Assembly (NCBI GenBank): GCA_017880775.1
Contig: JADGRQ010000023.1
Coordinates: forward strand, 1 to 64,000
Origin: Burkholderiales bacterium
Lineage (GTDB): Bacteria; Pseudomonadota; Gammaproteobacteria; Burkholderiales; SG8-39
Direction of reading: 5' to 3'
Length of the DNA: 64,000 nucleotides
Below the pieces are notes generated by a model that did no database searches, was not told where the DNA came from, and saw only the letters and a program-made list of their open reading frames with translations. The position numbers and the translations under genes were made by a program. This document shows positions 10,584-17,152 of the stretch, piece after piece. The number at the start of each line of letters is the position of its first letter. Positions within the stretch are counted from its first letter, which is position 1.

Positions 10584-10871
10584 TCAGGCGTCCACCGCCG
10601 GGGGCGAGGCCGCCGGAACGGCTTGCGCAGGCGCGCCCGATTCGCGCCTCAACTGCTGGATCTCGCGGCGCTGCCGCAGCCAGCCGCCGAGCATCGCGGC
10701 GGCGCCTAAAGCGGTACCGGCGACAAAAAACGCCAGCAGCAGCGCCACCAGCGGCGCCTGCCAGGCGAGGTCGAAGAAAAAGCGCAGCGTCACCGGCTCG
10801 GTGTTCTTCACAGCGAATGCGAGCAGGAACAGAAAGATGAGGAAACGTACCGTCCAGGTGATCGCGCGCAT
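10584..10871 (-). CDS. lapA: LapA domain protein (DUF1049)
   Basis: A 95-residue protein with two hydrophobic segments (FLIFLFLLAFAVKNTEPVTL and PLVALLLAFFVAGTALGAAA) separated by the VTLRFFFDLAW motif of LapA. A short basic tail (LRQRREIQQLRRE) follows. In E. coli LapA is encoded beside LapB and joins it in LPS assembly control. The gene lies between ihfB and lapB, the order usual in betaproteobacteria. Confidence 0.88.
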   Translation of the reverse strand: MRAITWTVRFLIFLFLLAFAVKNTEPVTLRFFFDLAWQAPLVALLLAFFVAGTALGAAAMLGGWLRQRREIQQLRRESGAPAQAVPAASPPAVDA

Positions 10872-10935
10872 GTTGGGTTCCTGCCCGCAAGCTTCGATGA
10901 CGCGCCGGCGGCAAGGCGCGCGCCGCTAGAGGCCG

Positions 10936-11244
10936 TTAGGACGATGGCTTGCCGTCGCCGTCTTCCATGCCGTCGACCCGCTCGCGCAGTTCCTTCCCGG
11001 CCTTGAAGTGCGGCACGTATTTCTCCGGCACGTGCACCTTCTCGCCGGATTTCGGATTGCGCCCGACGCGCGGCGGCCGGTAGTTCAGGCCGAAGCTGCC
11101 GAATCCGCGGATCTCGATGCGATGTCCGCTCAGCAGACTGTGCGTCATCGCATCGAGAATCATTTTCACCGCGTACTCGGCGTCTTTCGCCACCAGCTGC
11201 GGGTAGCGCTGCGCGAGCCGCGCGATCAGTTCGGACTTGGTCAT
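10936..11244 (-). CDS. ihfB: Integration host factor subunit beta
   Basis: A 102-residue HU/IHF family DNA-bending protein. It starts [17 protein letters not shown] and has IEIRGFGSF and the beta-arm motif [15 protein letters not shown] with the DNA-intercalating proline in RNPKSG. The sequence is closer to IHF-beta than to HU or IHF-alpha, and its place directly after rpsA is the conserved proteobacterial arrangement. The acidic tail after residue 88 is short. Confidence 0.94.
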
Positions 11245-11290
11245 GCCCGGCCTTCTCCCTGAAGCGTCATTCTGGCGGAGCTGAAATCCG

Positions 11291-13039
11291 CTATTGGTTC
11301 GGGGTGTCGTCGTGGCCGTCGAGCTTCGCCCGCAGCAGCGCGCCCAGATTGGTCGAGCCCGAGGCGCTGGCCGCGTTCTCGGTGCGCAACTGCTTCATCG
11401 CGTCGGTCTCCTCGGCCATGTCCTTGGCCTTCACCGACAGGTTGATCGAGCGGTTCTTGCGATCCACGTTGATCACCATCGTCTGCACGGTGTCGCCTTC
11501 CTTGAGATGGTTGCGCAGGTCCTCGACCCGGTCGCGCGAGTATTCGGAGGCACGCAGATAGCCTTCGACGTCGCCGCCGAGCGCGATGACCGCGCCCTTC
11601 GCGTCGACCGACTTGACCGTGCCGCTCACCATGCTGTTCTTCTCGTGGCTGGCGATGAAGTTGGTAAACGGGTCGCCTTCGAGCTGTTTGATGCCGAGCG
11701 AAATGCGCTCGCGCTCGACGTCGATCGACAGCACCACCGCCTCGATCTCGTCGCCTTTCTTGAAATTGCGCACCGCCTCTTCGCCGCTCGCCGACCAGGA
11801 CAGGTCCGACAGGTGCACCAGGCCGTCGATCGCACCCGGCAGGCCGATGAACACGCCGAAGTCGGTGATCGACTTGATCTGGCCCTTGACGCGGTCGCCC
11901 TTCTTGAACTCGCGCGCGAAGTCATCCCACGGGTTCGGCATGCATTGCTTCATGCCGAGCGATATGCGGCGGCGCTCCTCGTCGATCTCGAGGATCATCA
12001 CCTCGACCTCGTCGCCGACCTGCACCACCTTGGACGGATGCACGTTCTTGTTGGTCCAGTCCATCTCCGAGACATGCACCAGGCCTTCGATGCCGGCCTC
12101 GACTTCGACGAATGCGCCGTAGTCGGTGAGATTGGTGACCTTGCCGAACAGGCGCGTGCCCTGCGGGTAGCGGCGCGAGATGCCGACCCAGGGATCCTCG
12201 CCGAGCTGCTTCAGTCCGAGCGAAACGCGATTCTTCTCGGTGTCGAACTTGAGGACCTTGGCGGTGACTTCGTCGCCGACGTTCACCACTTCGGAAGGGT
12301 GCTTGACGCGGCGCCAAGCGAGGTCGGTGATGTGGAGCAGGCCGTCGATTCCGCCCAGGTCGACGAACGCGCCGTAATCGGTAATGTTCTTGACGATACC
12401 CTTCACCACTGCACCCTCGGCGAGCGTCGAGAGCAGCGCGTCGCGCTCGGCTCCCGCCGTTGCCTCGAGTACCGCGCGCCGCGACACCACCACGTTGTTC
12501 CTCTTGCGGTCGAGCTTGATGACCTTGAATTCCATCTCCTTGCCTTCGAACGGCGTGGTGTCCTTCACCGGCCGCAGGTCTACCAGCGAACCCGGCAGGA
12601 ACGCGCGGATGCCGTTGACCATCACCGTGAGGCCGCCCTTGACCTTGCCGGTGATCATCCCCTGGACCTTTTCGCCCTGCTCGAGCGCTTTTTCCAGGTC
12701 GAGCCAGGCCGCGAGCCGCTTGGCCTTTTCGCGCGACAGGCGCGTCTCGCCGAAACCGTCTTCGAGCGCCTCGATCGAGACGCTGACGAAATCGCCGGGT
12801 TTGACTTCGACCTGGCCCTGCTCATTGCGGAATTCCTCGACCGCGATGAAGCTCTCGGACTTGAGGCCGGCGTTGACCACGACGACGTTCTGGTCGACGC
12901 GTACGACTTCGGCGGTGATCACCTCGCCGATGCGCATCTCCTTGAGGGTGAGGCTTTCCTCGAACAGCGCGGCGAAGGATTCCTTGGTGGGAGGGTTTAC
13001 AACTGCGGGGTTGGAAACTGCGGGGGAGAGACTGGTCAT
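11291..13039 (-). CDS. rpsA: 30S ribosomal protein S1
   Basis: A 582-residue S1 protein with six successive S1 RNA-binding domains; repeats of [37 protein letters not shown] and [19 protein letters not shown] can be read. S1 binds mRNA leaders and promotes translation initiation. The N-terminus ([14 protein letters not shown]) carries a short extension before [11 protein letters not shown], which is the usual start of the family. The 144-nt leader between cmk and rpsA holds no gene and could carry the autoregulatory site known for rpsA in E. coli. Confidence 0.96.
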
Positions 13040-13183
13040 GTTGTGGTTGAAGGACCTGGTTCAGCCGCCGGCCGGATGAACGGCGTGTGCGGGTTGGGTT
13101 GCAAACACGGGCGCCACCGCGGGGATTGCGGCGCACCCACCTGTTACAGCGCGAGATTTCCTGTTTTTTCGTTCCAAATCAGA

Positions 13184-13858
13184 CTACTTGCTCGTTGCCT
13201 TGCGTTCCAGCCACCACGCTAAGATGCGCGCGGCCACTTCCTCGATCGACAGATCGGTCGAGCCCAATTCAACCGCGTCGCTTGCGGGTTTGAGCGGCGC
13301 TACGGCGCGATTAGCGTCTTGGGCGTCGCGCGCCTCTAGGTCGCGGGAAAGGGCGGCAAGATTAGCATCGAAACCTTTTTCTTTCAACTGCTTATACCGG
13401 CGCTGGGCGCGTGCGGCAACGCTTGCCGTCAGGAACACCTTGAGGACGGCGTCAGGGAACACCACAGTGCCCATGTCGCGCCCGTCGGCCACCAGACCCG
13501 GCGGCACCCGGAAATCGCGCTGGCGCTCGAGCAGCGCGGTGCGCACGGTCGGCGAGCGGGCGATGGTCGAGGCGCGTCGGGCGCAGTCTTCGGTGTAGAG
13601 ATCTGGAGTAACTTCCTGATTTTCAAGATAGATGTGATCTCCCTGAAAACGTATATTGAGCTTGGCGGCCAGTTCGGCCAAGCGTGGCTCGTTGTCCTCG
13701 GCCACGGCCTGGCGCTGGGATGAAAGCGCCACCAACCGGTACAGGGCTCCACTTTCCAGATAGTGAAAGCCCAGCTGCGCAGCGACCCGGCGCGCCACAG
13801 TGCCCTTGCCGGAGGCAGACGGGCCATCGATTGCGATGACGGGGATCGTCAAATTCAC
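13184..13858 (-). CDS. cmk: Cytidylate kinase
   Basis: Cmk phosphorylates CMP and dCMP. The 224-residue product has the P-loop GPSASGKGT at residues 11-19, ESGALYR for CMP binding, DGRDMGTVVFPDA, and the arginine-rich lid SVAARAQRRYKQL. The start is GTG 13858, which overlaps the stop of the DUF433 gene as GTGA; no good ribosome binding site precedes it, so translation is probably coupled to DUF433. In most relatives cmk directly follows aroA; here a toxin-antitoxin block intervenes. Confidence 0.95.
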   Translation of the reverse strand: MNLTIPVIAIDGPSASGKGTVARRVAAQLGFHYLESGALYRLVALSSQRQAVAEDNEPRLAELAAKLNIRFQGDHIYLENQEVTPDLYTEDCARRASTIARSPTVRTALLERQRDFRVPPGLVADGRDMGTVVFPDAVLKVFLTASVAARAQRRYKQLKEKGFDANLAALSRDLEARDAQDANRAVAPLKPASDAVELGSTDLSIEEVAARILAWWLERKATSK

Positions 13859-14082
13859 CTGGCCGTCGAGCCCGCGAGCTTGCGCTCACGGACGGCGGCG
13901 AACTCCAGCGCCGCATTGACGTCATCGCTTGCAAGCGACGCGAAATCGCGCGGGATCTGATCTGCCGTCATCCCCCCCGCGAGGTATTCCAGAATGTCGT
14001 AGACGGTGATCCACGTGCCCTTGATGCAGGGCTTGCCGCTGCGGATCGCGGGATCAATGGAGATGCGGTCTTGATAGGCCAT
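13855..14082 (-). CDS. DUF433 domain protein (antitoxin-like)
   Basis: A 75-residue protein whose sequence (ISIDPAIRSGKPCIKGTWI, ILEYLAGGMTADQI) matches the DUF433 family, a small helix-turn-helix domain often acting as antitoxin to a PIN-like DUF5615 toxin. No DUF5615 gene is seen beside it. Instead the stop overlaps the cmk start by four bases, and vapC ends 62 bases upstream on the same strand. It may be an orphan antitoxin now fixed in the cmk operon. Its own regulation is not visible. Confidence 0.8.
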   Translation of the reverse strand: MAYQDRISIDPAIRSGKPCIKGTWITVYDILEYLAGGMTADQIPRDFASLASDDVNAALEFAAVRERKLAGSTAR

Positions 14083-14144
14083 GGCGCTCAGTGCCGCTGA
14101 AGCTTAGCACCGCTGCGGTGGGCGGGATTGATCGCCGATCGCTC

Positions 14145-14537
14145 CTAGGCAGCCACCTTCAAGCCAAGGTGCGCCGCCATGAAGTCGAAATCGCGGTCGT
14201 TGTGCAACAGTTCGTGGCCTTCCTCTATGCAGAACGTCGCGATCAGAACGTCGGTTGCGCTGCGCGGTGTCACGCCGAGGCGACGCATGCGCCGATAGTT
14301 TTGCGCGGCGGCGAGGGCCAGTGTGTGGCCACCAAGGTTGAAGCACGGCAATGCAAGCAAGCGGGTGCTCAGTGTCCGGAACTCCCGGTCATTGCGCACG
14401 CCCTGAAGCACTTCCTGCAGCACGCGATCGCAAAGCGCAATTGTCTGGTCATCCAGGAGCAGCGCCATCCGGTCGCAATACGGAGCTTGAGCGCCCCGCA
14501 GGAAGTCAACCCACACACTCGTGTCGGCGATCACCAT
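14145..14537 (-). CDS. vapC: VapC-type PIN domain ribonuclease toxin
   Basis: A 130-residue PIN domain protein. The start MVIADTSVWVDFLRG is characteristic of VapC, and the four expected acidic residues are present: D5, E42, D96 (SATDVLIATFC) and D114 (HNDRDFD). VapC toxins cut tRNA or rRNA when freed from the antitoxin. It follows vapB by eight bases. The catalytic residues look intact, so the toxin may be functional. Confidence 0.88.
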   Translation of the reverse strand: MVIADTSVWVDFLRGAQAPYCDRMALLLDDQTIALCDRVLQEVLQGVRNDREFRTLSTRLLALPCFNLGGHTLALAAAQNYRRMRRLGVTPRSATDVLIATFCIEEGHELLHNDRDFDFMAAHLGLKVAA

Positions 14538-14545
14538 TCCCGGGA

Positions 14546-14746
14546 TTACCTGCGCTTCAGACTCCGCAGCGTGCCAGGATCACCCTCCCAATGGATCTTT
14601 CCGCGCAGCGCCAGAATGCCGCGGTAGGCCTTTTTGCGGGCGAGCAGTCGCAAGCCCTCTTCGACGGTTGCGCGTTTGGTCTTGCAGCCGCTCGCGCGCA
14701 TCGCTTCGGAGAGAAGCTTGTCGTCAATGTCGATGTTCGTGCGCAT
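14546..14746 (-). CDS. vapB: VapB-type antitoxin
   Basis: A 66-residue protein starting MRTNIDIDDKLLSEAM, with KRATVEEGLRLLARKK in the middle. This is the VapB antitoxin form with an N-terminal DNA-binding ribbon-helix-helix and a C-terminal tail (GKIHWEGDP) that wraps the PIN toxin. It is upstream of vapC, the usual order, and has its own promoter with an inverted repeat, as expected for autoregulation. Confidence 0.85.
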   Translation of the reverse strand: MRTNIDIDDKLLSEAMRASGCKTKRATVEEGLRLLARKKAYRGILALRGKIHWEGDPGTLRSLKRR

Positions 14747-14759
14747 GATCTTGTCTTCA

Positions 14760-14789
14760 ATGTGTAAGAGTTTTTAATTATATACACAT
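14760..14789 (-). promoter_or_regulatory. vapBC promoter and candidate VapB operator
   Basis: On the minus strand a perfect TATAAT -10 box lies at 14782-14777, about 30 bases before the vapB start; no clear -35 box is seen. It is framed by an inverted repeat, ATGTGTA (14760-14766) and TACACAT (14783-14789), centred on the -10 box. This is the placement expected for an operator bound by the VapBC complex. The AT-rich stretch stands out sharply in this GC-rich region. Confidence 0.6.
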
Positions 14790-14975
14790 CATGCGCCAGC
14801 CAGCCTGCCGCTCGATTGCGACCTCTTTTCCGAAATCGACCGGGACCGCAAGGCGTAACTCTTCCCCGTACACCCTATGGCTGCGCCTGAACCGCTTCGT
14901 CAATGCGAAGGCAAGTGACAACCGCGCTAGCGTCTTCGATTGTCCATTCGCACGTTCAAAACACCCATTTCGTGC

Positions 14976-16271
14976 TCACCGAGCCGCATCGCAGATCGAA
15001 GCAAACGCGTCGAAGAACTCGGGGAAAGTCTTGCGGACGCAATCCGGGTCGTTGATGCGGACCGCCACGCCCGCGAGCGATACGAGCGAAAAACACATCG
15101 CCATGCGGTGGTCGTCGTAGGTGTCGATCGCAACCGTGGATGTTAGCTTGGCGGGCGGCACGACGCGCAGGAAATCCGCGCCCTCCTCGACGACCGCCCC
15201 CAGTTTGCGCAGTTCCTTCGCCATCGCCGCGATGCGGTCGGTTTCCTTGACGCGCCAGCTCGCGATGTTGCGCAGCGTGCACGGTCCATCCGCGAACAGC
15301 GCCATCACCGCCACGGTCATCGCCGCATCCGGAATGTGATTGAGGTCGAGATCCACCGCCTTCAGCCCGCCGCATCCGCGCGCCTCGATCCAGGATTCGC
15401 CGAACTCCACCTTCGCGCCCATGCTCTCCAACACTTCGGCGAAGCGCACGTCGCCCTGGATGCTCGCGCGCCCGACGCCCTCGACGCGCACCGGCCCGCC
15501 GCCGATCGCACCCGCGGCAAGAAAGTAGGAAGCCGCGGACGCGTCGCCTTCGACGTATATTTCTCCGGGGCTCGCGTAATGCCCCCGCGGCACGCGGAAT
15601 GCGCGCCAGCCGTCGCGCTCGACCGTGACCCCGAAGCGCCGCATCAGGTTGAGCGTGATCTCGACATAGGGCTTCGAGATCAGCTCGCCCTGCACTTCGA
15701 TGGCCGACGCGTGGCCAAGGAGCGGCAACGCGAGCAGCAGGGCAGTCAGGAACTGCGAGGACACGTCGCCGCGCACGCGCACCGGTGCGTCGAAGCGAAT
15801 GGCGCCCGGATGTAGCGCGAGCGGCGGAAATCCCTGCGCGCCGGCGTAGTCGATGCCGGCTCCGACGCGGCGCAAGGCGTCGACCAGATCGCCGATCGGC
15901 CGCTCGAGCATGCGCGGCACACCCGACAGGCGGTACTCGCCGCCAGAAAATGCCAGCACCGCCGTGAGCGGACGGAACGCGGTGCCGGCATTGCCGAGGA
16001 ACAGTTCGGCGTTCTTCGCCGGCGGCGGTCCGCCGGCCCCGCGGATTACGATCGCGCCGTCGCCCGCGCGGCGCCAGTCGATCCCGAGAGCGCGAAGCGC
16101 ATCGAGCATCACGCGCGTGTCGTCCGCGTCGAGCGCATCGCGCACGCGCGTCTCGCCGTGCGCGAGCCCCGCGAGCAGCAGAACGCGGTTGGAAATGCTC
16201 TTCGAACCCGGCAGCCTGACGGTGCCGGCCGCGCGGCGCACCGCAGCGAGGTCTAGGAACGCGCGTCTCAC
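14976..16271 (-). CDS. aroA: 3-phosphoshikimate 1-carboxyvinyltransferase (EPSP synthase)
   Basis: AroA joins phosphoenolpyruvate to shikimate-3-phosphate in the shikimate pathway. The 431-residue product carries [17 protein letters not shown] near the N-terminus and [15 protein letters not shown], both substrate-binding motifs, and [14 protein letters not shown] near the C-terminus. [13 protein letters not shown] is the class I-type loop usually linked with glyphosate sensitivity. Its ATG overlaps the tyrA stop by four bases; it is the last amino-acid gene before the inserted vapBC block. Confidence 0.96.
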
Positions 16272-17152
16272 GGGCTGAATTCGCCTGCCAGCCAGCGGTT
16301 TCGCGCCGCTCGCGCATCGGCAAACACGCGCTCGAGCCCCGCCGCGTCACCGCGCTCGACCAGCGTGCGCATGGCGGCGAGCTTCGATACGTAGCGGTCC
16401 ATTTCCGCCAGCAGCGCAACGCGGTTCGCGGCGCAGATGTCGCGCCACATCTCCGGGTGGCTGGACGCAATGCGCGTGAAGTCGCGAAACCCCCCCGCTG
16501 CGTAGCCGAACAGCCGCGCCGCGTCGCCGCGCTCGCTCAGCTCGTGCACCAGCGCGTAGGCGAGCAGGTGCGGCAGGTGGCTCACCGCCGCGAACACCGC
16601 GTCGTGCTCTGCCGCGCTCATGCGAAACACGCGCGCGCCGCACGCGACCCAAGCCTCCTCGGCCCGCCGCACCAGCGCGTCCGGGTTTTCCGCGAGCGGC
16701 GCGAGCACCACACGCTTGCCGTCGAACAGATCCGCGCGCGCGGCGGCCGCGCCGCTGTGCTCGGCGCCGGCGATCGGGTGCGCCGGCACGAACTGCTTGA
16801 GGCATCCACCGAGGTGCGCCCGTGCGGCGGCAACGACGTCCTGCTTGGTGCTGCCTGCGTCCATCACCAGCGCCTGCGGCGCGAGCGAAGCGGCAATGCT
16901 GGAGAAGGTCTTACCGAACTGCGCCACCGGTGTGGAGACCAGCACAAGATCCGCGTTCTTCACGGCCGCTGCCGCGTCGGGCTCGCTCGAGTCGATCGCT
17001 CCGCGCTCCAGCGCGATGCGAAGGTTGGCCGGATCGCGACCCACGCCAACCACCTCGCCGCAGGCGCCCGCGCGTTTGAGCGCAAGCGCGAACGATCCGC
17101 CGATCAGGCCGACGCCGATGATGGCGATGCGGCCGTAGCGCGGCGCAGCCAT
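16268..17152 (-). CDS. tyrA: Prephenate dehydrogenase
   Basis: TyrA oxidises prephenate (or arogenate) to the tyrosine precursor. The 294-residue protein starts with the dinucleotide-binding motif [19 protein letters not shown] and has [11 protein letters not shown], with the conserved histidines of the family. There is no chorismate mutase or ACT domain, so this is the short monofunctional form. It begins one base after the hisC stop and overlaps aroA by four. Confidence 0.92.

Follow-up and report, generated by a model that had tools for sequence, protein, structure and literature searches.

A vapBC pair and an orphan COG2442 antitoxin gene between aroA and cmk, probably at a recurrent site of toxin-antitoxin insertion and retention

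The window analysed here, a stretch of 64,000 nucleotides from a Burkholderiales bacterium, carries a vapBC toxin-antitoxin (TA) pair and a DUF433/COG2442 gene between aroA and cmk. From sequence comparison, and with moderate confidence, the arrangement is probably an ordinary TA pair plus a leftover COG2442 gene, located in a recurrent site of TA insertion and retention, with cmk standing in the place of a toxin gene. The genes run co-directionally in the order aroA - vapB - vapC - DUF433 - cmk - rpsA - ihfB, and the gap between aroA and cmk measured 1117 nt, in agreement with the initial annotation, which had placed about 1.1 kb with vapB, vapC and DUF433 there in the same orientation. The features of the region are:

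14976-16271, minus strand: aroA (EPSP synthase; Pfam and NCBIfam), the final gene of the upstream aromatic-amino-acid run
14747-14975, minus strand: aroA-vapB spacer, in which the terminator scan found none on the minus strand
14760-14789, minus strand: VapB-type operator, its geometry repeated in genome G083 and recurring before related vapBC pairs
14546-14746, minus strand: vapB, antitoxin, 66 aa (PF09957 VapB_antitoxin, 56.8 bits against a cut-off of 23.4)
14145-14537, minus strand: vapC, PIN-domain toxin, 130 aa (PF01850 PIN, 40.2 bits, over the cut-off)
14101-14109, minus strand: TGCTAAGCT, an extended -10-like box before DUF433, weak (3/6 to TATAAT plus TG)
13855-14082, minus strand: DUF433/COG2442 antitoxin gene without a DUF5615 toxin partner (PF04255, 71.3 bits, over the cut-off)
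13855-13858, minus strand: 4-nt overlap GTGA of the DUF433 stop and the cmk start, at the toxin-start position of DUF433-DUF5615 pairs
13184-13858, minus strand: cmk, (d)CMP kinase (Pfam and NCBIfam), starting at GTG 13858 or TTG 13852
13089-13104, minus strand: rpsA-leader motif TTGCAACCCAACCCGC, conserved in loci with and without an insert
11291-13039, minus strand: rpsA, ribosomal protein S1 (Pfam and NCBIfam)
10936-11244, minus strand: ihfB, IHF beta (Pfam and NCBIfam)

All seven proteins from AroA to IHF beta exceeded their Pfam family cut-offs, and the vapC product also matched NCBIfam TA_toxin_VapC (NF047959; 153.7 against a cut-off of 80). The pair has the make-up of a type II VapBC system, with a VapB-family antitoxin encoded first, a PIN-domain VapC, close spacing (8 nt) and an operator at the promoter. 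The nearest solved structure to VapC was VapC11 (6a7v; E 3.7e-18), with D5, E42, D96 and D114 aligned, which we take to be the catalytic residues. Gene order, aligned acidic residues and the operator repeat at the promoter are thus shared with that system, whereas the position between housekeeping genes, with no terminator found, is unlike that of typical VapBC pairs. COG2442 proteins are shown or proposed antitoxins in the parts of the literature consulted (PMC3834315, PMC2701414); in Synechocystis vapBC10, a PIN-COG2442 pair, VapB10 is described as neutralising VapC10 and activating its own promoter (PMC3834315, in part). The window shares the DUF433/COG2442 antitoxin gene with such pairs but has no adjacent PIN-like toxin gene; since the next gene is cmk, DUF433 was classed as an orphan antitoxin and not as a TA pair. 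AroA and Cmk matched the two halves of the bifunctional family NF008816 (PRK11860), below its cut-off of 943; unlike in that fusion, they are encoded here by two separate genes with the insert between them. No integrase gene was found by Pfam among the three genes of the insert, and none of the PADLOC models matched VapC or DUF433 of the window or any of six proteins of genome G053.

The survey of the junction covered 98 genomes of the family, of which 80 yielded cmk, and gaps were measured in 81 loci of these 80 genomes (two in G044). The initial annotation had held that cmk usually lies close behind aroA and had proposed a synteny comparison across relatives, in which this expectation was confirmed: the aroA-cmk gap was below 300 nt in 62 of 75 genomes, the largest of these gaps being 76 nt, and at least 300 nt in the other 13 (13/76 when all loci are counted). 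These counts exclude loci without aroA in the fetched piece (G001, G053, G015, G048 and G055). In G001 and G053 aroA was located farther upstream (by 4.7 and 15.7 kb, respectively), sharing contig and strand with cmk; in G015 and G048 it was on a contig separate from that of cmk. At eight neighbouring junctions, gaps of at least 300 nt occurred in 1 of 475 cases in total (serA-pheA 0/37, pheA-hisC 0/62, hisC-tyrA 0/68, tyrA-aroA 1/72, of 300 nt, cmk-rpsA 0/74, rpsA-ihfB 0/58, ihfB-lapA 0/53 and lapA-lapB 0/51); lapB-rfaE, measurable in four loci, one of them with 1202 nt (L069), was left out of this total. The difference between aroA-cmk and the other junctions gave a Fisher p of 3e-11, or 2e-10 with the window excluded (12/75 loci), in tests that are not independent because the genomes are related. 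Among named proteobacterial loci with aroA in place (70, after 10 of 80 had been dropped; at least three belong to the family), the gap was below 300 nt in 68 and at least 300 nt in two, a lower frequency than in the family (p = 0.005). An assembly or binning artefact is very improbable: the family genomes are mostly fragmented assemblies, but the window and 12 further genomes each have a single contig on which aroA, insert and cmk follow one another with the usual gene order and orientation. A quick core-protein tree gave at least 13 changes of insert state and at least 11 of TA state, counts that stand for changes of either kind, as gain and loss are not distinguishable. Outside the family, two order-level genomes (G031 and G036; L045 and L046) had an aroA-cmk gap with long non-TA genes, named by eye from their translations as helicase-like and argS-like.

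Of the 18 loci in the family where an insert is present or aroA is displaced, 12 had TA-family genes by Pfam in the selected ORFs scanned, a count without a matching figure for how often accessory DNA at other places in these genomes carries TA genes. Beside the window, these loci comprised four with a Phd-like and PIN pair antisense to cmk (G016, G008, G045 and G080, with VapB as well in G008 and G045), VapBC in G083, a DUF433-DUF5615 pair together with a PIN and ribbon-helix-helix gene in G002, MazE-PIN in G059, HicB-like and ORF6N genes in G055 and G058, MNT/HepT in G015, and HigBA, DUF5615, MNT and ParE in G053. Three of the four Phd-like proteins scored under the Pfam cut-off of 29.8 bits (25.8 to 28.1), the fourth reaching 30.2. 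The remaining six loci had no recognised TA gene: G001 (a Uma2 fragment, DUF2817, ABC_sub_bind and two ORFs without a match), G020 and G078 (DUF2061), G090 (NMT1-like), G048 (a protein kinase, the insert not being spanned) and G072, which was not scanned. The genome of the window has 33 PIN matches in 4.3 Mb, a density at which a PIN gene at any given junction would rarely occur by chance. In the 15.7-kb insert of G053 (L267, G053:C241:80000-98000), Unstab_antitox/ParE, HigB with an HTH partner, DUF5615, two MNT-type nucleotidyltransferases, DUF4160 and ankyrin repeats were seen, along with an IS110-type transposase, the sole transposase seen. Genes or fragments of PF04392 ABC substrate-binding proteins, antisense to cmk, were present in inserts of three genera (L041, L092, L122 and L268 in G008, G083, G002 and G001, respectively).

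TA pairs in gaps of core operons are already known. Examples are relA-mazEF-mazG and dinB-yafNO-yafP of E. coli, the parDE pair that Salmonella has at relA-mazG, and ccd at folA-apaH (PMC7167474). These cases resemble the present one in three respects: the TA pair occupies the space between two genes of a core operon, strains that lack it have the operon undisturbed, and one site can serve different elements (PMC7167474, in part). At aroA-cmk, likewise, the gap is tight in most TA-free relatives and other TA modules use the same gap. The present case differs in the junction concerned, in the many instances within one family, and in the position of cmk, in a toxin's place behind an orphan antitoxin. 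A search of the open-licence literature returned no paper linking vapBC with cmk and rpsA, or aroA-cmk with toxin-antitoxin genes, and as far as that search goes aroA-cmk is a new TA junction; the phenomenon seems unusually well replicated here, and an essential gene behind an orphan antitoxin seems to be new. With at least 13 changes of insert state at one junction in one family, and with empty sister sites, the system is open to comparative testing.

The shared modules also bear on whether the junction was invaded repeatedly. Among the 98 genomes, the window's VapC had one close relative (87% identity), in G083 at the same junction, the next reaching 50%. The closest DUF433 (84%) was that of G002, again at the same junction, with DUF5615 between it and cmk, while the next two (77%) were located elsewhere. 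Window and G083 share a sharp-ended vapBC block of 639 nt that runs from about 44 nt upstream of vapB to the end of vapC. Identity at fourfold sites between the two was 71% in vapB (31 sites) and 49% in vapC (61 sites), compared with 55%, 57% and 42% in the core genes aroA, tyrA and cmk, respectively; the insert genes thus look like old residents, and a recent horizontal transfer of the block was rejected. Amino-acid identity in shared inserts was 79-94% for PIN and Phd and 85-88% for VapB and VapC (window against G083), in most cases exceeding the AroA and Cmk values of the pair concerned; VapB in other pairs (56-74%) was an exception. The modules shared across genera could be one old, eroded island instead of repeated insertions, that is, an ancestral TA island in the clade of genera g1, g2, g8 and g16, passed on vertically and many times eroded or swapped. 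This alternative is a serious one, if somewhat short of an even chance: the same-site blocks with their core-like fourfold-site identity, the sharp-ended vapBC block shared with G083 and 3' remnants of vapC before cmk in G008 and G080 all fit it, but the sisters of G083 (G091 and G089) have clean ATGA aroA-cmk junctions, which simple deletion would rarely restore, and the insert content at the same junction is different in g15, g20 and G090. The preferred reading remains that the aroA-cmk junction of this family would be a recurrent site of TA insertion and retention.

Several traces of an insertion event or a source were considered and discarded. The N half of cmk was more divergent than its C half, yet this was also the case without an insert (mean difference -10.7 in 35 pairs without an insert, -13.5 in 19 pairs with one and -14.2 in 16 with both), and a recombination footprint was therefore rejected. 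So was site-specific or transposon insertion, the window's repeats being imperfect (among the five largest of ten direct-repeat families); one pair, within cmk (13813-13836) and the aroA-vapB spacer (14798-14821), lies towards the two ends but is too weakly similar (75% over 24 nt) to be interpreted. A plasmid source of VapC was rejected, as 24 of 24 plasmid records had less than 60% identity (best listed 47.2%), and no phage match for the window's VapC was found.

In loci with an empty junction, the aroA stop and an in-frame cmk start shared a 4-nt overlap in 44 of 62 cases (ATGA 31, GTGA 12 and TTGA 1). In insert loci this overlap is sometimes taken by the last upstream ORF, namely DUF433 in the window (GTGA), vapC in G083 (TTGGGTAA) and a HicB-like gene in G055 and G058 (TTGA). 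The GTGA overlap points to translation of cmk from an mRNA that includes at least the end of DUF433, and translational coupling of DUF433 and cmk is likely. With the two genes overlapping, a promoter cannot lie between them, and transcription of cmk must start within or ahead of DUF433; candidate starts are the vapBC promoter, the weak box before DUF433 and read-through from aroA. In 11 of 26 DUF433 rows (ten distinct places), the DUF433 stop overlapped by 4 nt with the start of a partner ORF; the partners were DUF5615-like by eye, that of G002 alone having been scanned with Pfam. With DUF433-DUF5615-cmk at the same junction in G002, deletion of DUF5615 would be the simplest reading of the cmk GTG at the toxin's overlap site: a DUF433-DUF5615 pair would once have been present at the window's junction, the DUF5615 toxin would then have been deleted, and cmk would have come to stand in its place behind the antitoxin, its translation coupled to DUF433 instead of aroA. 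The overlap could also be coincidence, since GTGAA is all that it has in common with DUF5615 starts; a matching reading frame would be expected in one case out of three, and TTG 13852 may instead be the start of cmk. The genome of the window (G000) has eleven DUF433 matches; among seven other DUF433 loci of this genome, four had a partner ORF overlapping by 4 nt, and the other three yielded no alignment.

The start of cmk was assigned by rule (nearest ATG, else GTG or TTG, else CTG), which gives TTG 13852 in the window. By this rule, 48 of the 62 empty loci have an ATG start, compared with 6 of the 18 insert loci (p = 0.001), a contrast that is not independent evidence because six of the 18 insert loci belong to genus g15 and all have TTG. 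In G008 and G080 (L041 and L061), there was no in-frame ATG, GTG or TTG between the last stop and the cmk P-loop, and a CTG at the position of the TTG of G083 overlapped the final codons of the vapC remnant.

It is unlikely, in our estimate, that TA modules were repeatedly domesticated as cmk expression units, with promoter, operator and coupling taken over and the toxin sometimes lost. Cases that might be named for this are DUF433-cmk in the window, the vapC-cmk overlap of G083, the HicB-like genes of G055 and G058 and the Phd-type palindrome of G016; if it were true, (d)CMP kinase output would follow antitoxin turnover. Should cmk truly be expressed as a former toxin partner, this would show concretely how selfish modules can become wired to an essential gene. 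On the preferred reading, the module would be present mainly for its own maintenance or defence, and any influence on cmk would be a side effect.

The perfect TATAAT box inside an inverted repeat noted before vapB (14777-14782, between the arms ATGTGTA at 14783-14789 and TACACAT at 14760-14766) is beyond chance. VapC relatives were found in 25 of the 98 family genomes; 30 loci were retained from this search, 29 of which, including the window, yielded a vapB upstream region. GTGTA-N(6-24)-TACAC was present before 13 of the 29 vapB homologues (0.09% of shuffled copies), and at least one operator half before 26. G083, whose vapB is 88% identical, has TATAAT at -36 and 7-nt arms as in the window, and TATAAT at -36 is also kept upstream of vapB in G011. 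Because the site recurs before related vapB genes, the box is assigned to a VapB-type operator, and by analogy we infer that VapBC represses this promoter; the pair is read as an ordinary type II TA pair, probably active and self-repressed. Between 10800 and 17000, scanning both strands by consensus gave no sigma-70 promoter with a -35 box. The reported absence of a terminator after vapC also held, as no minus-strand terminator was found in 10800-17000, the three terminator-like matches all being on the plus strand. A hairpin between vapC and DUF433 was rejected, its fold being no better than those of shuffled sequences.

The region before DUF433 raises the alternative that the TA pair is an insulated passenger, vapBC ending its own transcript and DUF433-cmk having a promoter of its own in 14083-14144, with no regulatory link between them. 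We regard this as rather doubtful. TGCTAAGCT aligns with TGCTAGACT/TGGTAGCAT in three relatives, so that the extended -10-like box extends across four DUF433 modules, and a perfect TATAAT was seen in 11 of the 21 DUF433 upstreams listed; against this, the window's box is a weak promoter match (score 3.5, p 0.11), no terminator was found after vapC, and blastn gave no similarity of the vapC-DUF433 spacer to other DUF433 upstreams. In the reading favoured here, cmk mRNA would arise by read-through from the vapBC promoter, from the weak promoter before DUF433 and perhaps by read-through from aroA.

The initial annotation had further suggested that the TA promoter may also drive cmk, S1 and IHF, tying core functions to antitoxin level. 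One part of this stood: read-through from the vapBC promoter to cmk is plausible, given the co-directional genes, the GTGA overlap and no terminator found after vapC. For S1 and IHF, control by antitoxin level stays conjectural. In its full form, with the VapBC-repressed promoter as the main promoter of cmk, rpsA and ihfB and antitoxin level setting the output of S1, IHF and (d)CMP kinase, the proposal is quite improbable. The operator-promoter and the likely coupling speak for it as they do for read-through, but a candidate promoter lies before DUF433, and relatives have kept cmk with the PIN-Phd pair antisense to it (G016, G008, G045 and G080) or with a decayed promoter, vapB in G008 and G045 having neither an adjoining vapC nor TATAAT before it. 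The rpsA-leader motif (CAACNAACCCCG) also argues against it, as the motif is conserved regardless of insert: 52 of the 74 family loci match 9 or more of its 11 fixed bases, compared with 1.8% of shuffled copies. For the cmk-rpsA-ihfB operon of E. coli, internal promoters are described in the part of the source consulted (PMC12083536). Given these promoters and the conserved motif, dependence of rpsA and ihfB on vapBC is unlikely to be complete, and both would have further promoters.

The motif was also present in a Nitrosomonadales (Thiobacillus) locus (L161). Rfam gave no match for the rpsA leader, and an RNA structure there was rejected, RNAalifold finding none and the window's leader folding no better than shuffled copies. 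A weight-matrix promoter scan before cmk and rpsA at p<=0.05, which was without power, gave matches in 5 of 74 rpsA regions, 2 of 63 empty-site regions and 1 of 17 insert loci. In G016 (L040, contig C20), cmk and the antisense phd gene have their starts back to back, and a palindrome, ATCAGATACTATCTGAT, overlaps the top-scoring promoter match among the 17 insert loci scanned.
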